Assembly: GCA_037382465.1 (NCBI GenBank)
Contig: JARRPX010000002.1
Coordinates: forward strand, 132,714-196,713
Length of the DNA stretch: 64,000 nt
DNA from: Anaerolineales bacterium
Lineage (GTDB): Bacteria; Chloroflexota; Anaerolineae; Anaerolineales; E44-bin32
Direction of reading: 5' to 3'
In this document: one piece after another, positions 39,732-60,831 of the stretch
Numbering within the stretch: the first letter of the stretch is position 1
How the letters are laid out: the number at the start of each line of letters is the position of its first letter
Translations under genes and position numbers: made by a program
The notes under the pieces: generated by a model
What the model saw: only the letters and a program-made list of their open reading frames with translations
The model's database searches: none
What the model was told of the DNA's origin: nothing

Positions 39732-39749
39732 AAATGGTCTAGACCATTT
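39732..39749. promoter_or_regulatory. Perfect 18-base palindrome, probable operator
   Basis: AAATGGTCTAGACCATTT is fully self-complementary. It overlaps the first two bases of the -35 element at 39748 and so is well placed for a repressor controlling the signalling cluster to the right. The size and lack of a spacer suit a dimeric regulator; which one is unknown. Confidence 0.6.
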
Positions 39750-41042: not shown

Positions 41043-41615
41043 ATGTATATAAACCAGAAGCTGGGCGAGTTACACATCAAAATTGTATACTACGGCCCTG
41101 CTCGCAGTGGAAAAACGACAAACCTGCAATTCATCCACGGCCACATCAACCCAAAATCGCGTGGTGAATTGGTTTCCTTAAAAACACGTGAAGACCGGAC
41201 GATTTTTTTCGATTTCATGCAATTAGAACTCGGGAAAATCAATGGCCTGAAACCTAAATTCAGCCTGTATACCGTGCCTGGGCAGGTGTATTACGAAGCA
41301 AGCAGAAAACTCGTCCTTCAGGGTTCCGATGGAGTCGTATTCGTTGCCGATTCGCAGCGCGATCGTTTATCTGCTAACATCAGCGACCTCAAGGCACTGG
41401 AGCAATACTTGATGCAGCTAGGGACACCGATAGATTCATTTCCGTGCGTCATTCAATTCAACAAGCAGGATCTTCCCGACGTGATCAAGCCCGATGATCT
41501 AAAGACGCAGATGAATATCAACGGCGTTCCTTGCATGGGCTCGTCCGCGATCAAGGGACACGGCGTATTCGACACTTTGAAAACCATCATCAATCTTGTG
41601 GTTAGACAACTATAA
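41043..41615 (+). CDS. mglA: MglA-like small GTPase
   Basis: A 190-residue Ras-like GTPase. G1 is GPARSGKTT (~19-27); switch I contains TREDRTIFFDF; the G3 region is TVPGQ, the MglA-specific form lacking the usual Asp; G4 is FNKQDL. MglA proteins set cell polarity and drive motility with roadblock-domain GAPs (MglB). Here several roadblock genes follow. A GGAGG site lies 10 bases before the ATG. The C-terminus ends shortly after the last helix, with no lipid-anchor motif. Confidence 0.92.
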   Translation: MYINQKLGELHIKIVYYGPARSGKTTNLQFIHGHINPKSRGELVSLKTREDRTIFFDFMQLELGKINGLKPKFSLYTVPGQVYYEASRKLVLQGSDGVVFVADSQRDRLSANISDLKALEQYLMQLGTPIDSFPCVIQFNKQDLPDVIKPDDLKTQMNINGVPCMGSSAIKGHGVFDTLKTIINLVVRQL

Positions 41616-45559: not shown

Positions 45560-45748
45560 ATGTTGGTTACGCAAATTAACCGAGAAATCAGCACGACCTT
45601 TCACATAATTGACGATGGGACGATCTCCAGATCCACCCAAAATATGTCGTTCCAGCGTAAATTCGGCGGGACTTCCAAATACGTTTGCATGATTTCGGAC
45701 TTGAAAGTCAACGCCAACCAATTTCGGGAGGTACCCAATGTCAGATAA
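45560..45748 (+). CDS. Possible small protein, doubtful
   Basis: An open frame of 62 codons begins 2 bases after the HAMP gene stop and runs 11 bases into the next gene. It begins MLVTQINREISTTFHII and has no recognised domain. It fills an otherwise empty 180-base gap, but the ribosome-binding site is poor, and its composition gives no support either way. Confidence 0.25.
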   Translation: MLVTQINREISTTFHIIDDGTISRSTQNMSFQRKFGGTSKYVCMISDLKVNANQFREVPNVR

Positions 45749-46229
45749 AGTGGTCATACCCCCAGCTCTGATGACGAAGATCATCAAGATCATGTCGCAA
45801 TTGCTGGAGAAAACCCAGGCATGCTGTGTCTTGCTTGCGGACATCAGCGGTCAGTTGATCTGCCAACAAGGGTTTACCAAAACCTTTGATCCGGTCATCT
45901 TGTCTGCTTTAACCGCCAGCAACATGGCCGCAACGGCAGAGATTGCCCGCCAGATCGGTGAGGAAAATCCCTTCAAACTCATGTTCCACGAAGGGGACGA
46001 TCAAAATATCTATCTTTCGAACGTTGCCGGCAGTTTCCTGCTCGTCGTCCTGTTCAGCACAAAAGTTCAGATCGGTCTTGTACGCCTTTTCACCGGACAA
46101 GCCGTGAAGAACCTCGTTCCGCTTGCCGCGGAGTTCGAACGAGTACAAAAGGAACAGGGGCGCATTGTCGATGATGAATTTGGTCAAGCATTGACCACAG
46201 AGATAGAGAGTCTGTTTGGCGAAAATTAG
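45738..46229 (+). CDS. Roadblock/LC7 domain protein
   Basis: A 163-residue protein with one roadblock/LC7 domain, closely similar to the roadblock part of the first cluster gene (39983): ACCVLLADISGQLICQQG, FHEGDDQNIYLSNVAGSFLLVVLF. The tail has DDEFGQALTTEIESLFGEN, also resembling the region behind the roadblock domain in that protein. GGGAGG lies 6 bases before the ATG. It lacks a receiver, so it is probably a constitutive partner of the GTPase or of the receiver-roadblock proteins. Confidence 0.85.
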   Translation: MSDKVVIPPALMTKIIKIMSQLLEKTQACCVLLADISGQLICQQGFTKTFDPVILSALTASNMAATAEIARQIGEENPFKLMFHEGDDQNIYLSNVAGSFLLVVLFSTKVQIGLVRLFTGQAVKNLVPLAAEFERVQKEQGRIVDDEFGQALTTEIESLFGEN

Positions 46230-46262: not shown

Positions 46263-46655
46263 ATGAATTATCAACAAGTTGATTTAGCCACGTACCAACC
46301 GGTAACGCTCGATGAACTGCTGTTCACCTTGCACGAGCAAGGTCAATTCGAGACTGCCGTTCTCGCCAGCGTTGAAGGATTGCCAATCGCAACCGTACCT
46401 GCAAACTTCGATACGGATAAAGCGGCAGCCATGATCGCGATGTTGAAGAGAGTGAGTAAAGAAGCGCGCGATCAATTTCCGCTGGCAGAGATTGATGAAT
46501 TTTCCATTCTTGATTCCAATCGGATGCGCTTGGTTTGCCGATATTTGAAGGCCGGCGGCGAGGAAATGATTCTTGCGGTTATCGCGCCGCCAGACCACAG
46601 TTACCGCCGCATGACGAACCAGGCCATCAAACAAATCGTTGAATTCCTAGCTTGA
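46263..46655 (+). CDS. Roadblock/LC7-like protein
   Basis: A 130-residue protein with a roadblock-type layout: LHEQGQFETAVLASVEGLPIATVPANF, an amphipathic helix (AAAMIAMLKRVSKEARDQF), a strand pair (EIDEFSILDSNRMRLVCRYL) and EEMILAVIAPPDHSYRRMTNQAIKQIVEFL. It is more distant from the others in the cluster. A GGAAGG site precedes the ATG. It is the last roadblock gene before the transposase-like gene. Confidence 0.78.
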   Translation: MNYQQVDLATYQPVTLDELLFTLHEQGQFETAVLASVEGLPIATVPANFDTDKAAAMIAMLKRVSKEARDQFPLAEIDEFSILDSNRMRLVCRYLKAGGEEMILAVIAPPDHSYRRMTNQAIKQIVEFLA

Positions 46656-46700
46656 TTTCGAAAGTAGATCTATCCGTGATTTGTGAAATGTATTCAGGTG

Positions 46701-47912
46701 ATGAACGGAACAGGCGGAAGTATTTCAGAGGTTGGTATCAAATCTCTTTCAACGGTCGACCGATCGTGTGAAAGGAAAGAGTTCGAAGAATTTTTCCACG
46801 ATCAATTCGATCAATATTTCGCGCGTAGCGAGACGCGACAACAAGCCTTGCACTACGTCCAATCCCTGCTTGTCGAGTCAGATCCCAAATCCAACGGAAA
46901 GAAGCCCCCTGCCTACAGGAAATTCTCAAAGTCCGCCCAGAGATTGTTTTTTGGCGCGCAATGGGACGATGAAGCCGTCCACCATAGTCTACAAGATTTC
47001 ATTGTTGCCGAATTGGGCCATGAGAAAGGCGTATGCCTCATTGGCGTGACGTATTTCTCTAAAAAGGGAGAAAAAACGGTCGGAGTACAAGCGCAATTCA
47101 ATCGCGAACTCAAGAAGGACCAGAATTGTCAGGTTTGCCTTTTCCTGGGTTATGCATCCCCGAAAGGTTGTACATTTCTCGACCGCCGCCTTTACCTTCC
47201 CGTGGAATGGACGGACGACCAAATCCGTAGAGCCGAAGCGAAAATCCCCGAGGACATCGAATTTCGAAGCAAATCCGATCTCGCCTTGGACATGCTTCAT
47301 TCAGTCCATGCCATCGGAACACCCATTCACTGGGTGGTTGGCGGCGAACCATTCTGCAGCGATACGAACTTACGCAACGTCATACAAGCGGCCGGCATGA
47401 ATTACATTCTCTCCGGACGGGATACCGATTCGAGCTTCCGAAACTTGAATCACAGACAAACGCCGTCAGACCCGACCAACCAGGAAGACGAAGCCTGTGG
47501 TTCTTCCATTTACAAGATCGTATCCGGTTGGAATGAGAAGAAATGGAAACGCGTCATCGACCATTCCAATGGTGACGAAATCTGCGTCTTCGATTGGGCC
47601 TCGGACCGTGTTCTCGAACTCCAGAACGAAATCGAACCCCAGGAAGTCTGGCTGTTGTCCCGTCGATCGGTAAGCCAACGATGCGAAACTGCCTATTTCA
47701 TCTCCAACGCTGCGCAGGACGCGACACTCGCCGAACTCGCCGAGAGAATTAACGACTTGGGGATACTCGATCAGATGGTATCTGAAGCATGCACGATGTT
47801 TAAGATGGACGAGTACGGCGTGCGCCACTGGAACAGCTGGCATCGTCACATTACTTTGTCGATGATCGCCCATGCCTGGTGGGTTTATAAAGGGAAAAGG
47901 ACGTTACGATGA
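46701..47912 (+). CDS. IS701-type transposase homologue with lost catalytic residues
   Basis: A ~403-residue protein aligned by eye with IS701/DDE_5 transposases: GVTYFSKKGEKTVGVQAQFN, NCQVCLFLGYASPKGC, LDRRLYLPVEWTDD, PIHWVVGGEPFCSD and GVRHWNSWHRHITLSMIAHAWW. The family acidic triad seems gone: the DD before TGF is Gly-Val (47043-47048), the Asp of GDE is Gly (47343-47345), and the Glu in YEVR is Gly (47817-47819). The reading frame is otherwise intact and overlaps the following receiver gene by 4 bases. No terminal inverted repeats are seen. A GTG at 46683 is an alternative start. Probably a domesticated, non-transposing protein. Confidence 0.75.
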   Translation: MNGTGGSISEVGIKSLSTVDRSCERKEFEEFFHDQFDQYFARSETRQQALHYVQSLLVESDPKSNGKKPPAYRKFSKSAQRLFFGAQWDDEAVHHSLQDFIVAELGHEKGVCLIGVTYFSKKGEKTVGVQAQFNRELKKDQNCQVCLFLGYASPKGCTFLDRRLYLPVEWTDDQIRRAEAKIPEDIEFRSKSDLALDMLHSVHAIGTPIHWVVGGEPFCSDTNLRNVIQAAGMNYILSGRDTDSSFRNLNHRQTPSDPTNQEDEACGSSIYKIVSGWNEKKWKRVIDHSNGDEICVFDWASDRVLELQNEIEPQEVWLLSRRSVSQRCETAYFISNAAQDATLAELAERINDLGILDQMVSEACTMFKMDEYGVRHWNSWHRHITLSMIAHAWWVYKGKRTLR

Positions 47913-48349
47913 ATCATCCTCCATTATCGATAGAAGGATGTGATCAGACGCTGCAGGAAGAGCAGCCCAGCCTTTGCGGACGGGCGAAAACCATCCTGTT
48001 TGTTGAAGATAATGACTTGATGCGAGAAATCGGCGCGCAGATATTGGAGGATCTAGGGTATCTGGTCATCTGCGCTGCGAACGGGCAAGAAGCGTACGAC
48101 ATCTTCATGAAGACAGACCATATCGATCTGGTTTTCACCGACGTAGTGATGCCTGAGATCAGCGGCGCAGCCTTGCTTCAGAAAATTCGGGCTACAGGCT
48201 CACTCGTTAAAGCCGTTGCTGTAACGGGCCACGTCCTGGCCGAGGACCTGGATCGATTACGGGAAGTGGGCGTGAAATCGATTATTCGGAAACCTTACGA
48301 CGTTGACATCCTGGCCGATGCAGTCCGTGACGCGTTGGAAAATTCATAA
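47909..48349 (+). CDS. Single-domain response regulator (receiver only)
   Basis: A 146-residue receiver with an N-terminal extension of ~27 residues. TILFVEDNDLMREIG, phospho-Asp in [13 protein letters not shown], Thr in AVTGH and Lys in IIRKPYD are intact. It is very similar to the receiver at the C-terminus of the hybrid kinase at 52730 (both share DVVMPEI, KAVAVTGH and KPYDVDILA). It overlaps the transposase-like gene by 4 bases and precedes the first hybrid kinase by 27 bases. It could be a shuttle in a phosphorelay, or a remnant of a fourth hybrid kinase. Confidence 0.88.
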   Translation: MNHPPLSIEGCDQTLQEEQPSLCGRAKTILFVEDNDLMREIGAQILEDLGYLVICAANGQEAYDIFMKTDHIDLVFTDVVMPEISGAALLQKIRATGSLVKAVAVTGHVLAEDLDRLREVGVKSIIRKPYDVDILADAVRDALENS

Positions 48350-48376: not shown

Positions 48377-51300
48377 ATGGCGACAGAGAAGAACAAGAAA
48401 GCGCATTCATCGCAAGAGGACGGAATTCCGGCTGCCCGTCCGACACTCGCCTTCCTCACCGTAGCCATGGAAGATCACTTCAGCCTGGCCATGTGGACCG
48501 CGATCGTTGAAGCCGCCCACGAGCGGAATGCAAACGTGATTAGCATCGCAGGTGGAAACTTAAATGATGCAGCCGAATATAGCAGCTTAAAGAATTCAAT
48601 CTACCGAGCCGCAAACGAGGACCTTATCGATGGCATCATCATCTATGGATCGAGATTAGGAACCTACGTATCCGAGAAGACGTTTCGTGATTTCTGCAAT
48701 CGATTCGCATCCAAGCCATCTGTCAGCATCGGCCAGCATGTCGAGGGCATTCCCGCAGTTCTTTCCGATAACTACATCGGAATGCATCTTCTGGTCCGGC
48801 ATCTCATCGACGACCACGGGTATCAACGCATCGCCTTCGTTCGGGGACCGGAAGGACAGATCGAGGCGGAAACCCGATTCAAGGCATACAAAAACGCACT
48901 CATCGAATCTGGCATTGATATAGATCCCAATTTGATTTCAGAACCCGGTATTTGGGAGGCGATATCCGGCGAGGAGGCCGTTCGATTGTTCGTCGACGAG
49001 CGGGATTTACCACTCGATGCAATCGTTTGTGCTAACGATACCATGGCCCTGGCAGCGATGTGGGCTTTGAAAAATCGAGGCCTGATAATTCCGGATGATG
49101 TTGCCGTCGTCGGCTTCGATAGCCAGGTCATTGCAAAAGCAGCTACACCACCCCTCTCCACGGTCCGACAGCAATTGAAAGAACAATGCCGGTATGCCGT
49201 CGACATCGTGTTGACCCAATTGGAGGGCGGCGACGTCCCTGATCGGATCGAAATTCCCACAAAACTCTGCATCCGTCAATCTTGCGGCTGCGCATCGTCT
49301 GCGGTAGGACGTGCGATCACGAAGACAAGTCTCAAGAGCAGCAACAAGAAAATATCGAGCATAAATCGAGACGACACTCTTTCGGAGATCGCGCAAATCG
49401 TTGATACGACCATCGAAGGATTGGAAGCCTATAGAAGCAGCAGATTGTTCGATGCTTTCATCGCAGACATTGAAAAAAGCCATTCGAACAATTTCCTGCG
49501 AGAACTCAAACAATGTATCGAAGACACAATTACTCTGGAAACTGAAATAAACGAATGGCAGAGAGTGATATCTTCACTTCGACATTTTACACGGAGTCAA
49601 TATACCGACGAGTCGGCTACGGAGCGGATCGAGGAACTGAGTAATCAAGCACGTGTTCTGATCGGCGAGAAAGTTCAGCAAATCGAAACGCATCAATCGC
49701 TGATCTACGATCAACAATATGCCAACTTGCGAGACATGACCAGGGCCATATCGACGGCTCTCGAACTCGACGATTTACTCGAAACCCTGCATCATAATTT
49801 GCTTCGTTTCGGAATACGAAGCTGCTACCTATCTCTGTACGAAGAAACCGTACCAACTGCTGAGGACGAATCGCGAATCGACTCTCGTCCTTTGAAAATG
49901 ATTCTCGCCTTCGACGATAAAGGTAGACTGCCGTTTGAATCCGAAGAACCGGTCATTTCGACAAACATCCTTCCTCGGCGAAGAATAGCAGCCATGTCCG
50001 GAAATTGGTCTTTCGTAGTCAAAGAACTTGAACGTGCAGATGAACCACTAGGGACAGTTCTTTTTGAAGTCTACCCTCCGGATGGAAGAGCCTGTGACAT
50101 GCTGCAAGAACAAATCAGCAGCTCACTCACCTACGGATTGCTCCTCCAGGAGCGACAGCAGGAACATGAAGTACTCCAACAGGCCTACACGGAAGCGGAG
50201 CAACAAGCCAGGGAAAAGGAAATCGAGCTGGAGTTTGAGATCGTAGACCGTGAGCAGGCCCAACAAGCACTCATGCGAGAGCAGCACCTGCTGCGTATTT
50301 TGATGGAAAACTCCCCGGATGCCATTTATTTCAAAGACAAGGAAAGCCGTTTTATTAAGGTCAACACGGCGTTTGCCAGATTACACGACAAGGATTCTCC
50401 AGACGAACTTCTGGGATTATCCGATTTCGATCTGTTCACCGAGGAACATGCAAGCGAAGCATTCGAAGACGAGATGCGTGTGCTCAAGACGGGTGAACCG
50501 ATCGTCGGGAAAGAAGAGAAGGAGACCTGGCCAGACGGCCACGAAACATGGGTCTCGACGACCAAGTTGCCCATGCGGGATGAAAAGGGGAACGTTACGG
50601 GGACATTCGGTATTTCCCGAGATATTACCGAATCCAAACGAGTGGAGCAGGAACTTCGACGCCACGCCGCCCATCTCGAGGCGATCAACACCATCATAAG
50701 TTCCACTTCGACGGCCGTCGATTTTCAAGACCTGCTGAAAATTTCCCTGGATTTATCCCTCTACGCGGTTGAAATGAACATGGGAATCATCTGGCTTCCG
50801 CCTCATACAGTTTCTCGAAAACTGCTACCGCCAGAAAACGAATTCCCACACTACGATTTCAATCCCGAAAGTAACGGATTGCCGGAGATCCTCGTTGTCG
50901 ATGATTGGCAAAAAGTGACGCAGGAAGATCCGCGCATTGACTTCTACGAGACATTTCTCAAGACGCATGGCATTCGAGCTTCGATCACGGTTCCGATAAA
51001 AGCCGAGGAAGGGAATCGGCTTGGCGGGCTATGTATCGCCTCTCCCCAGCCATTCAAATGGACCACAGAAGAAACTAGACTTCTTGAAGCGGTCGGGTAC
51101 CAGATCGGAATTGCTGCCGAACGGCTGCGGCTTGTCGATCAGATCCGCGAACAGATGCAGCAGGTACAGCAAATCACGGATACCGTACCGGATGGTGTAC
51201 TCCTGCTTGATTCGAATCACTGTGTCATTCTCGCAAACCCGGCAGGAACTCGAGATTTACAGGCACTGGCGAAAGCTTCTGTCGGGGATGAGATTTCCCA

Positions 51301-52636
51301 TCTCGGTGGTTGTTCCATTTCCGATATTCTTCAAGCCGATACCGATGTCCCTTGGCATGAAGTTCTTACAAACAACCGGATTTTCGAGGTCGTTGCACGA
51401 CCCATTGACGCCTACAGATCTACCGAGAATTGGATTATCGTGATCCGGGATGTGACACAAGAACGGGAGATTCAACGCCAGGTGCAGCAGCAGGAACGCC
51501 TTGCGGCGGTCGGCCAACTCGCCGGCGGAATCGCCCACGATTTTAATAATCTGCTCACGACCATCATGCTTTATGCGCAAATGCCGTTACGCAAACAACA
51601 GCTGCCCGACGATCTGAAAAAGCCCCTCGAGACGATCCTCAGCGAGTCGCGCAAGGCGGCGAGTTTGGTTCAGCAGATCCTCGATTTCAGCCGGCATGCC
51701 CCGATCGAACGACACCCCATCGATCTCGGACCGTTCGTAAAGGAAGCCGTACGAGTTCTGCAACGAACGATCCCCGAAAACATCTCTTTGTATATCGAGA
51801 TCGACCCGGATGAATACCTCGTCGAAGCCGATCCGACTCGGATTCAACAGGTCCTGATGAATCTGGTCGTAAACGCGCGTGATGCTATGACGGAAGGCGG
51901 AGTGCTGCGAGTCGGAGTGTCAAGCGCGATCGTTCATGAAGAAGATAGCGACGAGGATGTTCCAATTTCCGGCATGAAACCAGGCAGATGGTTCTGCCTA
52001 TCCGTCAAGGATACGGGAACGGGCATCCCGGAAGATATCCTGCCCCATATTTTCGAGCCGTTCTTCACCACAAAAGCCGCCGGTAAAGGTACAGGATTGG
52101 GCTTATCCCAGGTTTGGGGCATTGTCAAACAGCACGAGGGATTCATCAAAGTAGATTCGACGGTCGGTGAGGGAACTGAATTTCTCGTATATCTGCCGAT
52201 CCATCAATCTGCAGAAAAAGTAGAAAGTTTACCTCCCGAAGACGTCAGCTTTCCCAAGGGCACAGGCGAACGCATTCTCCTCGTAGAGGACAGCCAACAC
52301 GTCCGTGACGTGAGTGAAGAACTTCTTCTCGACTTGGGCTATCAGGTTGTGACGGCAAAAAATGGCCGTGAAGCCCTGGACTTGTTCAAACATAATGGAA
52401 ATTTCGACCTCGTCTTCACCGACGTCGTCATGCCGGAAGTTGGCGGTGTTGAATTATTGCACTCACTGCGCGATATGGGGTCCACAGTAAAAACAATTGC
52501 CGTAACGGGACATATGCTCGCAAAAGACCTTCAAGAACTGCGAAAAAACGGTGTTTCGGGAATCATATTCAAGCCCTTGGAAGTGAAAGAAGTAGCCGAG
52601 GAAATTCGGAGGATTTTGGACGGCAAGCCGCAATAG
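48377..52636 (+). CDS. Hybrid histidine kinase with LacI-type ligand-binding domain (1)
   Basis: A ~1419-residue soluble hybrid kinase. Order: LacI/ribose-binding-like domain (~22-310; [20 protein letters not shown]...[11 protein letters not shown]) ending in a Cys motif (SCGCAS); helical and GAF-like region (~320-620); PAS (~634-755, [11 protein letters not shown]); GAF (~762-920); PAS (~928-1030, [10 protein letters not shown]); HisKA with H1054 (GIAHDFNN); ATPase (N box [10 protein letters not shown]); receiver with D1349. There is no helix-turn-helix, signal peptide or membrane helix, so ligand is sensed in the cytoplasm. The ATG at 48377 has GAGG 6 bases upstream; a TTG at 48356 is possible. 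Confidence 0.9.
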
Positions 52637-52729
52637 CAAAAAGACTACATCCGCATCCCTTATGATCGCAGTGCCGAAAGGATTTCCCAAGAATTACCAA
52701 AGGTGTAGCTTGCTCTAGAAAGTGTATCG

Positions 52730-55700
52730 ATGCCAATACCAAATGGAAATCTCAACTATACGCACTATCCCCAAAATGTAGGCGCGCGTCCAACAATTGC
52801 ATTTCTCGTCGATCGAATTCTCGGCACCAGCGGATACCAGTCACAAGTATGGCGAGGCATTATCGAGGCCTCGCACAACCATGATTTGAATGTGATCTGC
52901 TACACCGGTGGCTGTTTGAATGCCACGATGAATTTCGACGAATACGAATACCAACGCAACGTAATTTATGAATTAATTCCAGAAAAACATGTCGATGGAC
53001 TGATTATTGGGGCAGGCGTTATCGGTCAATACGTCAATTTTGAAGAGTTATCGACATTTTGCCGTCGATATCTTCCACTTCCGACCGTCAGCATTGGCTT
53101 CGAAGTCACGGGAGTTCCCAGTCTGTTAGCTGACGATACCACGGGGATGCAAGAAGCCATCACGCATCTAATTAAAAGACATGATCGACGGAAAATCGCT
53201 TTCATTCGCGGGCCGGATGGAAGCGCCGAAGCGCAAAGGCGGTATCAAGCATACCTGAACACACTTGAAAAGTACGGCATTCCAGAGGATTCCAGCCTGG
53301 TCACCCAGGGAGATTTTTACCGGGGTTCTGGAAAGGAGGCAGCGCGCATCCTTTTGGATGAGCGCAAGGTGGATTTTGACGCGCTGGTTGGCGCAAATGA
53401 CAGCATGGCGCTTGCAGCCATGGAAGTTATACAAGCACACGGCATAGACGTGCCGGATGACGTCGCCGTAATCGGCTACGACGATGTCATCGATGCAAAC
53501 ATTTCCAATCCTCCACTGACCACGGTGAGGCAGCCGATGTACGAGATCGGAAAACGCGCTGTTGAATTCCTCATCACAATATTGGAAGGTGGGGAAGTAC
53601 CGAATCGAGAAATGATGCCCACGACTCTGGTTCAACGCCTGAGTTGTGCCTGTGAGCCGGAACCTAAATCCGACACCTCCCTTCTCGAAGAAGGGTTTAC
53701 GCTAAGTTCCGACGATCTTGCTGCACAGCGAGATTATGTTGTGAGAAAGGTCGTCGAAGCATATAACCCGCCCTATTCACAAGAAGATCTGATCACCAGA
53801 AACACGACGGATTTGGTTGACACCCTCTTCAAGGCACTAACCAATCAGAGTGATCCCGATGAATTCATAATCTTGCTCGAGAAGATTTTACGTCACGGTT
53901 TGATGCATGGGGCCGACTCATATCAATGGCAATATGCGATGTCGAGTCTCAATCAGCTTACTGCTTCGCTCGTCAAGGATGTTGAATCCTCTCGACGGAT
54001 GGCGGACCTCTGGCGGCGGACGAATATGCTGTTAGGAAGGATTGGGTCCTTATCCATTTCTTATACAAAGCTGCAAGAGGAGCACCTCGCTGAGCCTTTG
54101 CGCTACACGAACCAGGCGCTGTTGACCACATACGACATGTCGAGTTTGATGGAGACGATCTGGGATCGTTTTCCAGATATCGGGATTCATACTTGTGTAA
54201 TTTCCCTTTTCGATGACCCAGAAGATTGCAGGAAAAAAGCCAGATTCATGCTTTCTTACAACACGGAAGGAAGAATCGATACAGCCGATGAAGCCAACCA
54301 GCCGTACCCGGCCGTCGATCTATTTCCAGAAGGATTCTTAGAAGTCGACCGGAGACAAGAACTCGTGGTCAACTCCCTCTATTTCCGCGACAAAATCTTT
54401 GGGTACTTGGTTCTTGGCATGTACAACCTCGATACGGAAATGTGCGAAACGCTGGCAACGCAGATCAGTGCAGCAATCCAAGGCGCAAATGCATTTCAGG
54501 AACTTAAGGAAGCGGATGAGGTAATCCGCCGCCGTTCAGTCCAGGTTGAAGCGTTGAATACGATCATCTCTGCCGCAGCGACCGAGGCAGATCTCAGACA
54601 GTTACTGGAAACCGCCCTCGACCATACACTCCAAGCCATCGATCTGGAGATCGGGAGCATCTGGATCCCACCCAACATTGTCACGCGCGGCATTCCGGAA
54701 GGAATCGTCGACAGCATCACACGCGACATCCTGACCCACGAAGAAGTACAAATTACGAACCCGATCGCCATTGAGGATTGGTCACGAGAATCCGAGAACG
54801 AGACCCTCGCACCGATATCCCACATCATGACTCGTCAGGGCGTCGGCGCATCACTCGTCGCGCCCATCATGGCCGAGAATGGGACCTTCATCGGCGGATT
54901 GATTCTCTCGGCCATGCAGCCACGCTCATGGTCGAAAGATGAAATCGATCTCGTGATCGCCGTCGGTCAACAACTGGGAACGGCTACCGAGCGCCTGCGT
55001 CTGCTGGAACGTATTCGGGAACAAATGCGCCGGGTACAACAGATTATCGACACCGTTCCCGAAGGAGTTATTCTGCTCGATAACGATGGGTTGATCCTGC
55101 TTGCCAATCCGGCAGGAGAACGAGATCTCGAACTTCTCGCCGATAAGGGAATTGGTGATACTCTCTCACAGCTCGGCAATCGCCCTGTCGGAGACGTATT
55201 GGATCGTGATCCGAAGAATCCCTGGTGCCGGATTTCGTGCGGTGAGCGGTTTTTTGAAGCCATCGCGAAAAAATTGGAAAAGGGGACCGAATCCGAGGGT
55301 TGGGTTCTGGTACTGCGAGATGTGACCAAAGATCGTGAAACGCAAAAACGCATTCATCAGCAAGAGCGACTAGCTGCCGTTGGGCAGATGGCCGGCGGGA
55401 TCGCGCACGATTTCAACAACATGTTGACCACGATCATGCTTTACGCCCAGAGACCTCTGCGTAAACATGAAGTGAATGCGGACATCAAGAAATCGCTGGA
55501 AACGATCCTCAAAGAATCGAAACACGCCGCCAACCTGGTACAGCAAATCTTGGATTTCAGTCGTCGATCGCCTATCGAAACAAGCCCTGTGGATCTGGGT
55601 CCGTTTGTGAAAGAAACAGTGCGGGTTCTGAAACGCACAATCCCGGAAAGCATCTCGCTCTCTCTGGAGACCGACCCGGAAGAATACATCGTCGATTGTG

Positions 55701-56491
55701 ACCCTACTCGCATTCAACAAGTTCTCATGAATCTGGTGGTCAATGCACGTGACGCAATGCCGAAAGGCGGGACGCTGTGGATCAAGTTGTCCAGCCTGCA
55801 GGTCGAAGAAGGTGAAGATCCACCGGCCGTGGGCATGACGCCGGGAAACTGGCTGCGCATTTCCGTTTCCGATACCGGCACCGGCATTCCACAAGAAGTG
55901 CTTCCGCACATATTTGAACCTTTCTTTACGACCAAAGCCACCGGCAAGGGAACCGGATTGGGATTGGCGCAGGTATATGGCATCGTAAAACAACATAATG
56001 GACAGGTAAGTGTGGACACAGAGATCGGTAAGGGCACGAAATTTTACGTCTACTTGCCGCTGTGTACACTTGAAAATAATCTATCCTCGCAGGACGGTGT
56101 GTTTTCATCCATCCCAAAGGGGAAAGGGGAAACCATCCTCCTGGTGGAGGACAACGAAAAGATGCGCGAGGTTGGTCAACAGATACTGGAAGACCTTGGG
56201 TACCATGTTCTTTCTGCATCGAACGGCAGGGAGGCGTTGGAAGTCTTCAAAACCAATGGTGATATTGATCTACTCTTTACCGACGTCGTAATGCCGGAGA
56301 TCGGAGGGGCAGTCTTGCTGGATGAACTGCGTCAATTGGGTTCCAACGTTAAGGCGGTTGCGGTTACGGGCCACATCATCGCCGAAGACCTGGATCATCT
56401 GCGACAAGCCGGAGTGGCTTCCGTGATCCATAAGCCTTACGATGTGGACATCCTGGCCGAAGTGATCCGTGAAGCACTAGATGAGGAATGA
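52730..56491 (+). CDS. Hybrid histidine kinase with LacI-type ligand-binding domain (2)
   Basis: A 1253-residue paralogue of the previous kinase. Order: LacI-type binding domain (~20-305; PTIAFLVDRILG...DDVAVIGYDDV) ending in LSCACEPE; helical/GAF-like region; GAF (~601-765); PAS (~770-870, DTVPEGVILLDNDG); HisKA with H893; ATPase ([29 protein letters not shown]); receiver with D1185 and KPYD. It lacks the first PAS domain found in kinases 1 and 3, which explains its shorter length. No membrane helix. 93 bases separate it from kinase 1. Confidence 0.9.
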   Translation: MPIPNGNLNYTHYPQNVGARPTIAFLVDRILGTSGYQSQVWRGIIEASHNHDLNVICYTGGCLNATMNFDEYEYQRNVIYELIPEKHVDGLIIGAGVIGQYVNFEELSTFCRRYLPLPTVSIGFEVTGVPSLLADDTTGMQEAITHLIKRHDRRKIAFIRGPDGSAEAQRRYQAYLNTLEKYGIPEDSSLVTQGDFYRGSGKEAARILLDERKVDFDALVGANDSMALAAMEVIQAHGIDVPDDVAVIGYDDVIDANISNPPLTTVRQPMYEIGKRAVEFLITILEGGEVPNREMMPTTLVQRLSCACEPEPKSDTSLLEEGFTLSSDDLAAQRDYVVRKVVEAYNPPYSQEDLITRNTTDLVDTLFKALTNQSDPDEFIILLEKILRHGLMHGADSYQWQYAMSSLNQLTASLVKDVESSRRMADLWRRTNMLLGRIGSLSISYTKLQEEHLAEPLRYTNQALLTTYDMSSLMETIWDRFPDIGIHTCVISLFDDPEDCRKKARFMLSYNTEGRIDTADEANQPYPAVDLFPEGFLEVDRRQELVVNSLYFRDKIFGYLVLGMYNLDTEMCETLATQISAAIQGANAFQELKEADEVIRRRSVQVEALNTIISAAATEADLRQLLETALDHTLQAIDLEIGSIWIPPNIVTRGIPEGIVDSITRDILTHEEVQITNPIAIEDWSRESENETLAPISHIMTRQGVGASLVAPIMAENGTFIGGLILSAMQPRSWSKDEIDLVIAVGQQLGTATERLRLLERIREQMRRVQQIIDTVPEGVILLDNDGLILLANPAGERDLELLADKGIGDTLSQLGNRPVGDVLDRDPKNPWCRISCGERFFEAIAKKLEKGTESEGWVLVLRDVTKDRETQKRIHQQERLAAVGQMAGGIAHDFNNMLTTIMLYAQRPLRKHEVNADIKKSLETILKESKHAANLVQQILDFSRRSPIETSPVDLGPFVKETVRVLKRTIPESISLSLETDPEEYIVDCDPTRIQQVLMNLVVNARDAMPKGGTLWIKLSSLQVEEGEDPPAVGMTPGNWLRISVSDTGTGIPQEVLPHIFEPFFTTKATGKGTGLGLAQVYGIVKQHNGQVSVDTEIGKGTKFYVYLPLCTLENNLSSQDGVFSSIPKGKGETILLVEDNEKMREVGQQILEDLGYHVLSASNGREALEVFKTNGDIDLLFTDVVMPEIGGAVLLDELRQLGSNVKAVAVTGHIIAEDLDHLRQAGVASVIHKPYDVDILAEVIREALDEE

Positions 56492-56628
56492 GGCGGGTTC
56501 ACTGATAGAAGTCCTCTAGCCAAGGGACATCGGTCAATCGCCAACAACTGACAATACAACCTCCCTTGCGGAGTATGGCGATTTCTGCTGCATAAGTAAA
56601 GAAATATAAGAATCAAGAGAATGTAACC

Positions 56629-59600
56629 GTGAGTGCATCTCGAAAACGACCCACCATAGGTTTCTTGACGTCTGGCGTAGCTGAGCCGCTTCGTCTGGTG
56701 ATGTGGACATCCGTCGCAGAAGCTGCTCAGGAACAAAACGCAAACGTCATTTGTATCGCAGGGGGTGAATTGGAGAATGCGGGTGAAAATCCATCTCCGT
56801 ACAACGATATTTTCAAAATAGGAAATGACGACATCATCGACGCCCTGGTGATGTGGGGCGCTTCGATCAGCAACTACGTTCCACAAGAAACCTACATCGA
56901 ATTCTGCAAGCAGTTCGATTCGAAACCTATGGTCAACATCGGTCATGAGGTCGCCGGAATACCCACCGTTACGACCGACGATTACATCGGTATGCGCAAC
57001 ATGATCCTTCATCTGGTTCAAGACCACAATTTCCGGCGCATTGCCTTCATTCGAGGTCCGGAAGCGCAGATTGGCGCGGAAGAACGGCTCAAAGCGTATA
57101 AAGACGTCCTGCAAGAGACGGGGATTGAAATCGATCCCAATCTGATTTCACCACCAGGCGTATGGGACGGATACACGGGTGGAAACGCCATCCGCATGTT
57201 CATCGATGAGCGCAGCCAACGCTTCGATGCTGTGGTAGGCGCCAACGACAGCATGTCGCTCGATGCGATATGGACCTTGAAGGAATATGGCCAAGCCGTC
57301 CCGGAGGACGTCGCCGTCGTAGGTTTCGACGATCAAATTACAGCCAAAGCCGCACTGCCGCCTCTCACGACGGTGCATCAACCTTTTCGGGAACAGTGTC
57401 GAAGAGCGGTAAACATGGCACTTCAAATGCTTCAGGGCGTAGAAGTGCCCGAGCGCGTGATCATTCCAACCACGCTCTTCATCCGCGAATCGTGTGGGTG
57501 TTCATCCCCGGCGGTCAAACGCGCAGCTGCAATACACCACCTCGAGAAGGAAGTTACGAGAAAATCGAACACTCAACGCGACAGCACGGTTTTGGAGCTT
57601 GTTGAAATTGCAAATGTTGCTATCGAAGGCTCTGGGGATGAAAACCTGGAAGCACTATTCAATTATTTCCTCACCGAGATCAAGGATGGCGCCACAGGAG
57701 AGTTCCTGCAGTCCCTCGACCGACTCATTAAGGAAACAATCGCAGAAGATGGTGAAATCGGCATCTGGCAAAATGCGGTGTCATCGCTGCGTCGCTATGC
57801 GCGCAGCCAATTCAGCGACGAGTCGACTTTGATGCGTTCGGAAGATCTCTGTGGGCAAGCCCGTGTGCTGATCAGCGAGAAGCTTCAACAAGCCGAACTG
57901 TATCAGAAGATGCTTGCCGAACGACAGTACGTGGAATTTCGTGAAATCACAAAAGCATTGTACTCGGCTTTTGACCTCGATGAGTTGGCGAACGCCCTGT
58001 TTCTCGGATTGCCCCGATTGGGCATAAGAAGCTGCTACATTTCCCTATACGAACGGATCGCGGATCTCGCAGATGGCGAATTTCGAGTCAATAAAGACCT
58101 GTCGCAAATGATCCTGGCGTTCGATGGAAAGGGTCGCGCAAAACCAAAGGAACCAAATACGTTCCCCACGACTGATCTTCTAAACCATGTGAAACTCGCT
58201 TCAAGGAAAAATCGTTTTTCGTTCGTCGTCGAAGCACTGTTTCGCGGAAGGAAGCAATTAGGCACAGCTTTATTCGAAGTCGATCCTCCGGAAGGACGTG
58301 TGTGCGACATCCTCCAGGAACAAATCAGCAGCGCCATTGAGGCGGCTCTGCTGCTTCAGGACCGAGAAAAGGAGGAAGAGGCACTCAGGAATGCCTATTC
58401 AGCGATCGAGAAACAAGTCGTAGAGAGAACCGCAGAATTGCAGCAAGAGATCGTTGAAAGAAAGCAAGCCAAAGAAGCGTTGTCTCGGGAACAGCATCTC
58501 CTGCGTTCTCTCATGGACTACTCTCCGGATTATATTTACTTCAAAGACCTCGACAGTCGGTTTATCAAAATCAACGCGGCGCTCGCGGAAAAATTCGGAT
58601 TGTCCGATCCGGATCAGGCGATTGGAAAGACAGACTTTGATTTTTTCGCCGAGGATCATGCAAAAGTTGCTTTTGAGGACGAAAAGCGAATGATCGAAAC
58701 CGGCGAAACAATTTCGGGAAAGGAAGAGCGGGAAATTTGGCGCGATGGTCGAGAGGCCTGGGTTTCGACGACCAAACTACCGTTACTCGACAAAGATGGC
58801 AATATGGCCGGTACTTTGGGCATCTCAAGAGACATCGACAAGCGTAAAGAAGCAGAAAGAGAAATTACACGCCGTGCAACCCACTTTGAGGCGTTGAATA
58901 CGATCATCGCCGCTGCTAATGCGGCAACCGACCTTCCCCAGCTTCTTAAAATCGCCTTGGAACATGCACTTCACGCCCTCGGCCTAGAAACCGGAAGTAT
59001 CTGGATCCATCCATATGTGGCAATGCAGGGAATGTCTTCCGACACACAGGAGCGTATCACCGAAGCCATGCGGGCCAGCCGCGAATTGGAGATTCCTGGG
59101 ACTCTGGTTGTCGAAGACTGGCAAGCGGCGGCCAAGTCGGGGAATCCACCTTTACCCTTCCCCGATCTTCTGATCCAGCATGGTATGCGTTCCTCACTGA
59201 CCGTACCGATTGTGGCCGAGGAAAACCGTCGGATCGGGGGCATCAGTCTCACCGCCCAGAGTCCGCGTACGTGGTCGGAAGAGGAGATCGCGTTGGCCGA
59301 AGCCGTCGGAAAGCAATTGGGTACAACAGCACAGCGGCTGCGGCTTTTGGAACGGATCCAAGAACAGGTGCGTCAGGTTCAACAAATCATCGACACTGTA
59401 CCGGAAGGTGTCCTGCTTCTCGACCAGAACGGTCACGTGATACTTGCCAATCCTGCGGGAAAGAATGACTTAGGCACATTGGCCAATGCGCAGTTGGGCG
59501 ATACGCTGACACATCTCGGGGATGTATCGATACAGCAAATTTTCGACGCGCCCAGTCAAGACCCCTGGCAACAGATTGGAATAGGGAATCAAATTTTCGA

Positions 59601-60831
59601 AGTCATCGCACGCCCGTTGGATACCGGAGTCCAATCCGAAGGATGGGTTCTAGTCATTCGAGACGTTACCCAGGAGCGTGAAACTCAGAGACGAGTCTAC
59701 CTGCAAGAACGCCTTGCTGCGGTGGGTCAAATGGCTGCGGGAATTGCACACGACTTCAACAACATCCTGGTTCCCGTCACACTGTATAGTGAAATGCTGC
59801 TGGAAGAGCCCACGCTGCGGGCAGAAGCACAGGAATGGGTAAAAACCATTCTTAACCTCTCACAACGAGCCTCTTCTGTAACGCAGCAGTTCCTGGATTT
59901 CAGCCGTAAAGGAGTCATGTCTCCCGTGGAAATCAGCCTGCGTGACTTCTTTGAGGATTTCATCACCCTCATCAACCGAATGCTTCCTGAAAATATACAC
60001 GTCGTTCACAAACCTTGCGAGGAACAGATCGTGATTCGTGCGGACCCCGGTCGACTTCAACAAGTACTGATCAATCTGGCGATCAACGCCAGAGATGCCA
60101 TGCGTGATGGCGGAAAGTTGATTTTCGAGATTTCGACGCTGACCGTTCAACCAAACAGGAGACCCCCCTATCGCGACATGAATCCCGGAGCCTGGCTGCG
60201 CCTGCGAATCATCGACAACGGAATTGGCATCCCATCCGATGTCCTGCCGCATATCTTCGAGCCCTTCTTTACGACCAAACCCGTCGGCCAGGGCACCGGG
60301 CTTGGCCTCTCGCAAGTGTACGGCATCATAAAACAGCACGACGGATATATCGACGTAGAAAGCAGCCTGGGCACAGGAACGATTTTCACAATCTACCTGC
60401 CCGTTTTGAACACACAGGCTTCCCTCATTCTCGATTCCGACGATTTCGATGCACTGGAAGGAAATCTAGAAACACTTCTGCTGGTCGAAGATGAATCTGA
60501 AGTACGCGATGCACTGAGCCGCGTTTTGGAGTCGTTGAATTATCGAGTAATCACGGCTTCGGATGGAAACGAGGCGCTTCGCCACTTTGATAACAATTGC
60601 GAAAAAGTGGACCTCGTGCTGAGCGATGTCATAATGCCGGGACTGAGTGGACCCACGCTTTTCCGCACCTTGAATGAAAAACAACCTGGAATCAAAATGC
60701 TGCTGATCACCGGCTATCCGTTGGATGAAGGAACACGAAAGCTGCTTGAGAGCAATTTCGTTTCGTGGGTACAAAAACCTGTCGATAAGAAAACGCTCGC
60801 CGACTCGATCCAAAAAATCATCAACGCCTGA
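56629..60831 (+). CDS. Hybrid histidine kinase with LacI-type ligand-binding domain (3)
   Basis: A 1400-residue paralogue starting at GTG. Order: LacI-type binding domain (~8-295; RPTIGFLTSGVAEPLRLVMW...[11 protein letters not shown]) ending in ESCGCSSP; helical/GAF-like region; coiled coil and PAS (~621-745); GAF (~748-910); PAS (~918-1015); HisKA with H1041 ([13 protein letters not shown]); ATPase (NLAINARDAM); receiver with D1333 (LVLSDVIMPGLSG). The kinase core and receiver are more divergent than in kinases 1 and 2, while the binding domain is closest to kinase 1. 137 bases lie between it and kinase 2. Confidence 0.9.
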   Translation: MSASRKRPTIGFLTSGVAEPLRLVMWTSVAEAAQEQNANVICIAGGELENAGENPSPYNDIFKIGNDDIIDALVMWGASISNYVPQETYIEFCKQFDSKPMVNIGHEVAGIPTVTTDDYIGMRNMILHLVQDHNFRRIAFIRGPEAQIGAEERLKAYKDVLQETGIEIDPNLISPPGVWDGYTGGNAIRMFIDERSQRFDAVVGANDSMSLDAIWTLKEYGQAVPEDVAVVGFDDQITAKAALPPLTTVHQPFREQCRRAVNMALQMLQGVEVPERVIIPTTLFIRESCGCSSPAVKRAAAIHHLEKEVTRKSNTQRDSTVLELVEIANVAIEGSGDENLEALFNYFLTEIKDGATGEFLQSLDRLIKETIAEDGEIGIWQNAVSSLRRYARSQFSDESTLMRSEDLCGQARVLISEKLQQAELYQKMLAERQYVEFREITKALYSAFDLDELANALFLGLPRLGIRSCYISLYERIADLADGEFRVNKDLSQMILAFDGKGRAKPKEPNTFPTTDLLNHVKLASRKNRFSFVVEALFRGRKQLGTALFEVDPPEGRVCDILQEQISSAIEAALLLQDREKEEEALRNAYSAIEKQVVERTAELQQEIVERKQAKEALSREQHLLRSLMDYSPDYIYFKDLDSRFIKINAALAEKFGLSDPDQAIGKTDFDFFAEDHAKVAFEDEKRMIETGETISGKEEREIWRDGREAWVSTTKLPLLDKDGNMAGTLGISRDIDKRKEAEREITRRATHFEALNTIIAAANAATDLPQLLKIALEHALHALGLETGSIWIHPYVAMQGMSSDTQERITEAMRASRELEIPGTLVVEDWQAAAKSGNPPLPFPDLLIQHGMRSSLTVPIVAEENRRIGGISLTAQSPRTWSEEEIALAEAVGKQLGTTAQRLRLLERIQEQVRQVQQIIDTVPEGVLLLDQNGHVILANPAGKNDLGTLANAQLGDTLTHLGDVSIQQIFDAPSQDPWQQIGIGNQIFEVIARPLDTGVQSEGWVLVIRDVTQERETQRRVYLQERLAAVGQMAAGIAHDFNNILVPVTLYSEMLLEEPTLRAEAQEWVKTILNLSQRASSVTQQFLDFSRKGVMSPVEISLRDFFEDFITLINRMLPENIHVVHKPCEEQIVIRADPGRLQQVLINLAINARDAMRDGGKLIFEISTLTVQPNRRPPYRDMNPGAWLRLRIIDNGIGIPSDVLPHIFEPFFTTKPVGQGTGLGLSQVYGIIKQHDGYIDVESSLGTGTIFTIYLPVLNTQASLILDSDDFDALEGNLETLLLVEDESEVRDALSRVLESLNYRVITASDGNEALRHFDNNCEKVDLVLSDVIMPGLSGPTLFRTLNEKQPGIKMLLITGYPLDEGTRKLLESNFVSWVQKPVDKKTLADSIQKIINA

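Follow-up and report, generated by a model that had tools for sequence, protein, structure and literature searches.

The gene tnp is an intact frame of the IS701 transposase family that sits inside a signalling operon with a dead active site, no element ends around it, an empty counterpart site in a syntenic operon, a long branch in the family tree and not a single stop codon. The explanation we favour, at a little below an even chance, is that its product is a non-catalytic protein of Tn5 fold, whose frame is selectively maintained because it partners the response regulator translated with it. The window, i.e., the whole stretch of DNA analysed here, spans 64,000 nucleotides of an Anaerolineales bacterium. 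Elsewhere in the Chloroflexota, a receiver domain and an IS701 domain are joined in one polypeptide, and this fusion is a stronger case of recruitment than tnp.

The gene and its operon

The features of the operon that bear on tnp are as follows.

41043..41615, + strand: small Arf/MglA-type GTPase of the same operon (PF00025), with a 67% identical orthologue in genome G023
45738..46229, + strand: roadblock/LC7 gene A (PF03259)
46263..46655, + strand: roadblock/LC7 gene B (PF03259), left border of the inserted unit
46701..47912, + strand: tnp, IS701-family transposase gene of 403 aa (NF033540, 250 bits; DDE_5, 114 bits)
47895..47901, + strand: Shine-Dalgarno-like AAAAGGA of the response regulator, within the 3' end of tnp (sequence, duplex scan)
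47909..48349, + strand: stand-alone receiver-domain response regulator (PF00072, 2.4e-21), with an ATGA overlap with tnp
47988..48333, + strand: segment duplicated from, or shared with, the second-kinase receiver at 56130-56475 (67% nucleotide identity over 346 bp, 64% at the amino acid level)
48377..52636, + strand: first of three tandem hybrid histidine kinases (LacI-type sensor, PAS, GAF, HisKA, receiver; Pfam)
52730..56491, + strand: second hybrid histidine kinase (Pfam), donor or sister of the stand-alone receiver

The frame of tnp runs through 403 codons without a stop, as the original prediction had stated, and a GTG at 46683 offers an alternative start. Its assignment to the IS701 type was equally sound: the match to NCBIfam NF033540 covers profile positions 4-359 of 363 with 250.1 bits against a curated cut-off of 150, and Pfam DDE_5 adds a match of 114 bits. 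The structure prediction that had been proposed as a check was obtained from AlphaFold with a deep alignment (pLDDT 88.6), superseding a model built from 9 sequences only (pLDDT 59). The model has the predicted IS4/Tn5-type RNase H fold, with a Z score of 25.1 over 329 residues against Tn5 transposase 1mm8. Tn5 transposase and its inhibitor (PDB 1muh and 1b7e) are the best fold matches, with Z of 25 and 18, despite only about 8% identity. Because intact relatives made up the guiding alignment, the model shows the fold of the family.

The gene is the only full IS701 copy in its genome, a genome-wide search having found no second full element, and no match to anti-phage defence models was obtained. 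Codon usage of tnp is host-like (z of 5.5-8.9 above random synonymous codons, with the window genes as reference) and agrees with the operon, as does its composition; this does not discriminate strongly between the readings of its retention.

All genes of the operon share one orientation, with DUF4388 and HAMP proteins further upstream of tnp and, downstream, the stand-alone response regulator followed by three paralogous hybrid kinases. The overlap of 4 bases with the next gene, claimed from the sequence at the outset, is the ATGA shared with the response regulator at 47909. In the duplex scan, the Shine-Dalgarno sequence of tnp itself is weak. The three tandem kinases (48377-60831) carry LacI/Peripla_BP_3-type ligand domains, and no full-length orthologues of them are listed among the relatives searched. 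Upstream of the operon lies a perfect palindrome of 18 bp, AAATGGTCTAGACCATTT, at 39732-39749, overlapped by an imperfect second inverted repeat.

Active site, element ends and insertion

The following segments of tnp were compared with 79 intact-frame IS701 relatives, the alignment of which served as the conservation reference.

46881..46955, + strand: degenerate N-terminal RKN.WQ.AE segment (residues 61-85), a putative DNA-contacting motif, with 16% median identity to relatives
47043..47048, + strand: codons of G115 and V116, replacing catalytic D1 and the next Glu (D in 79/79 relatives)
47343..47345, + strand: codon of G215, replacing catalytic D2 (D in 78/79 relatives)
47757..47792, + strand: C1 region, where L353, D357 and C364 replace R-(3)-E-(6)-K (R in 77/79, E in 79/79 and K in 77/79 relatives)
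47824..47886, + strand: C-terminal helix around SWHRHITLSMIAHAW (about residues 375-395), with near-complete retention

Aligning tnp with IS701 transposases, as had been suggested, upheld one part of the claim that all three catalytic acidic residues are replaced and corrected another. The first motif changed from IDE to IGV (D115G/E116V) and the second from GDE to GGE (D215G), both as claimed. The third residue is not glycine: the ungapped alignment sets Asp357 on the catalytic Glu (E357D), and Gly354 lies one residue after the lost Arg353. In place of the DDE triad, tnp has G115, G215 and D357. The R-(3)-E-(6)-K signature described for the C1 region of the family (PMC2266710) has lost both its Arg and its Lys (R353L, K364C), and Y218 and G219 are also gone.

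Thirteen of the 39 columns conserved at 97% or above are lost in tnp, against a maximum of six in any relative. These losses include all five of D, D, E, R and K (hypergeometric p = 0.002); for the triad alone, p = 0.03. The active site is almost certainly dead, judging by these replacements, despite the Asp at the Glu position. Catalytic losses that appeared in loci L179 and L180 were an artefact of gapped pairwise alignment, and were excluded. In comparison with the IS701 family of IS4-related DDE transposases (NF033540; PMC2266710), tnp keeps homology over its full length, the predicted Tn5-like fold, the spacing of the signature (with no Tyr in the family) and the conserved flanks of C1, but it lacks the catalytic residues, the DNA-contact motif and the terminal inverted repeats (TIRs).

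The TIR of the clade, TACTACARYCGCA, was derived from multicopy relatives of tnp, where it adjoins CTAG/CTAA-like targets; both are consistent with the published description of IS701 (PMC2266710). Around tnp, a repeat search found no inverted repeats and a scan for TACTACARYCGCA found it only with 3 mismatches, which is at chance level, so that the absence of repeats noted originally was confirmed and the mark of a mobile element of this clade is missing. Both ends of the element are lost, leaving no place at which to define a target duplication of 4 bp. A candidate for an eroded left TIR behind the stop of roadblock gene B was tested and rejected (p about 0.6).

The position of the insertion can be read from distances. 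The codon of residue 32 follows the left end by 118-132 bp in intact relatives, and in the window the stop of roadblock gene B lies 138 bp before the same codon; the element was therefore inserted just behind roadblock gene B. On the other side, the relatives mostly have 170-193 bp of DNA after the transposase stop (16 bp in one whose frame is longer), whereas homology to the kinase receiver domain begins 75 bp after the stop of tnp. The right end was therefore probably removed in the rearrangement behind the stand-alone receiver.

Genome G023, of the same family, has a syntenic operon in the order response regulator-roadblock protein, Arf GTPase, DUF4388, roadblock A, roadblock B and hybrid kinase. 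Its roadblock gene B is followed directly by the histidine kinase, with neither transposase nor stand-alone regulator between them. Hence, as far as sampled, the insertion is specific to the lineage of the window.

The proposed search for an orthologue of tnp at the same position gave no hit in the collection of species contigs, nor in the genomes of the same family and order that were covered. Searches with peptide patterns in contigs, and in 400 genomes of the phylum, 396 of the class and 400 of the order, which are samples rather than exhaustive sets, returned no orthologue above about 40% identity. Conserved orthologues at one locus under purifying selection, which characterise a domesticated transposase, were accordingly not found for tnp; the separate fusion described below does have an orthologue. 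Another mark of domestication, lost mobility combined with a frame that stays open longer than neutral drift would allow, is seen in tnp. The nearest relatives are elements 34-40% identical to tnp from other Chloroflexota, Sorangium and others, and plasmid records contain ordinary IS701 elements only, at about 31%. One Dehalococcoidia genome carries many near-identical IS701 copies (loci L078, L080, L081 and L084-L086), three of them within about 5 kb in L078.

These observations may be arranged in the following course. An IS701 element of the clade with the TACTACARYCGCA TIR would have entered a conserved operon of Arf GTPase, roadblock and histidine kinase genes just behind the second roadblock gene. 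Its right end would have gone, apparently when a rearrangement introduced the duplicated kinase receiver domain. The two TIRs and every catalytic and metal-binding residue would have been lost as well, while the frame would have persisted as a gene of the operon, with its translation coupled to that of the stand-alone response regulator. Its product may act with the co-translated receiver by protein-protein contact.

Retention of the frame

The gene is nested within an intact clade (node support of 99), and its terminal branch of 1.56-1.77 substitutions per site is several times longer than those of its sisters, the median of the other tips being about 0.2. A two-component fit divides this branch into about 1.0 family-like and 0.4 unconstrained amino acid changes per site, against 0-0.1 unconstrained in the intact sisters. 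Values of about 0.2-0.5 are supported for the unconstrained part, and these predict about 5-12 nonsense mutations where none is observed, although the method is rough, with BLOSUM-derived rates and FastTree lengths. In a neutral simulation of the losses at conserved sites, about 7-8 stops are expected and the probability of finding none is at most 0.002, or 0.006 from the non-catalytic losses alone. With about 8 stops expected under neutrality and none present, we conclude that selection preserved the frame once catalysis had gone.

The type and the distribution of the extra changes are also informative. A mutation-only amino acid spectrum fits them better than a selected one (lnL +10), and they are spread unevenly across regions of the protein (permutation p = 0.033). 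Few fall in residues 20-60, residues 166-205 or the C-terminal helix, and residues 61-85 and the region of the catalytic Glu are hit hardest, the former having the highest unconstrained component (y=1.3). The family-conserved blocks SWHRHITLSM and FLDRRLYLP are unbroken.

We infer a function at the level of the protein, with the receiver as partner. Several points weaken this reading: no orthologue was found in the genomes sampled; the extra changes match the mutation-only spectrum, as if only the frame mattered; tnp lacks a good Shine-Dalgarno sequence of its own; and the regional heterogeneity reaches only p = 0.033.

A close rival, to which we give a lesser though substantial share of belief, is that the protein is useless and the passage of ribosomes is what counts, as it starts the coupled response regulator and avoids polarity on the kinases, so that stops and frameshifts are purged while the amino acids drift. 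It would explain the ATGA overlap and the position of the response regulator's Shine-Dalgarno sequence within tnp, and the response regulator has no other plausible start codon; the mutation-only spectrum and the weak ribosome site of tnp suit it as well. However, it predicts neither the uneven retention of regions nor the excess of catalytic losses (p = 0.002), and it leaves the two intact blocks aside. The response regulator could, moreover, acquire an upstream start of its own.

That tnp is a recently inactivated copy heading for decay, with its frame under no selection, is unlikely. A single copy without orthologue that encodes a typical IS protein is what such a case would look like, but losses at 13 of 39 near-invariant positions imply about 8 stops, the TIRs are already gone, and composition and codon usage match the operon. 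The original claim that this is not a simply decaying insertion sequence is thus supported by the count of stops, and the two-component fit agrees with it.

It is similarly improbable that the product binds DNA, either as a regulator of the operon or as an inhibitor of transposition in the manner of the Tn5 inhibitor. The predicted Tn5-like fold includes the N-terminal domain, and the perfect palindrome at 39732-39749 upstream of the operon might provide a site. Nonetheless, the likely DNA-binding motif, residues 61-85, is destroyed and is poorly predicted in the model, which makes such a role unlikely; with this N-terminal motif gone, the product is probably not a sequence-specific DNA binder. 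No link connects the palindrome with the protein, and binding there is unlikely. The Tn5 inhibitor acts on a resident active transposon, whereas the genome of the window has no other full IS701 element to inhibit. The proposal that tnp is kept for DNA or protein binding therefore survives in part: the frame is retained and the fusions give a precedent, but the motif 61-85 is the most degraded part and selection on coupling alone would also explain the open frame.

Finally, a still active transposase relying on displaced acidic residues is barely credible, given that a full-length protein with acidic D357 and E216 would have to move without either Asp, the signature Arg and Lys, Y218/G219 or TIRs, and only one copy exists.

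Response regulator fusions in other Chloroflexota

Fusions of a response regulator with an IS701 domain were found at two loci in different genera of one family.

L181, 5907-7475, - strand: fusion of a receiver and an IS701 domain in genome G343 (also present in L010)
L192, 5654-7228, + strand: orthologue of the G343 fusion in genome G1107

The G343 protein has 522 residues, with a complete receiver domain ahead of the IS701 domain, and its full-length orthologue in G1107 is 47% identical. Both adjoin a bacteriochlorophyll synthase gene, and downstream of each come genes for a phytochrome kinase and a further receiver protein. Among the five genomes of their order that were searched, two carry the fusion. 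In both proteins D2 is replaced by Asn and the signature Arg by Tyr, which suggests that their ancestor was already impaired; in the G1107 protein, D1 is also changed to Glu and the catalytic Glu to Lys.

The segment that matches tnp residues 61-85 is 88% identical between the two fusions, with pN of 0.05; across 794 intact pairs of comparable overall identity, this segment has a median of 48% and reaches at most 76%. For NG86 dN/dS of the fusion pair the synonymous sites are saturated, and the low pN of the motif is the informative figure. This identity indicates that the fusion is under purifying selection together with its putative DNA-contact part. Contact with DNA by this segment is suggested by its location within the Tn5-like N-terminal domain, and its conservation points to a DNA-binding output domain in the IS701 part.

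The fusion lies in another part of the family tree, and its origin is therefore independent of tnp. Both share altered catalytic residues and a coupling to a receiver domain and a histidine kinase, but the fusion is one polypeptide with the receiver first and a hyperconserved motif, while tnp is a separate gene that has lost the motif. Given the different lineage and the different region retained, the fusions are a precedent for tnp rather than a proof. On at least two occasions, it appears, two-component systems have taken up an IS701 transposase, and the fusion lends the idea of such recruitment real support. We tentatively propose, short of an even chance, that IS701 proteins with dead sites were recruited more than once into two-component systems of Chloroflexota, the fusion apparently being a DNA-contacting regulator controlled by the phytochrome kinase and tnp an unfused second case.

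Eukaryotes offer well-known examples of domesticated DDE transposases that act as regulators; in bacteria, to our knowledge, such cases are rare. Nuclease-dead TnpB-like repressors and RAYTs are bacterial insertion-sequence proteins turned host factors, but they are neither DDE/RNase-H transposases of the IS4/IS701 kind nor parts of two-component systems. In the literature searched, no bacterial domesticated DDE transposase tied to two-component signalling was found. The FHY3/FAR1 transcription factors of plants, derived from MULE transposases, act in phytochrome signalling (PMC13306707, PMC4761848). The fusion, rather than tnp, resembles them in that a DDE-type transposase was recruited into light signalling, although FHY3/FAR1 are eukaryotic, belong to the MULE family and have an unrelated origin.

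The conserved fusion would be a new output domain of response regulators and a bacterial counterpart of FHY3/FAR1. It is also the better object for experiments, and its host is probably a cultivated phototroph, which makes it open to testing. Together, the cases suggest that bacteria reuse dead transposases as signalling parts, and automatic annotation as plain IS701 transposase hides such genes.
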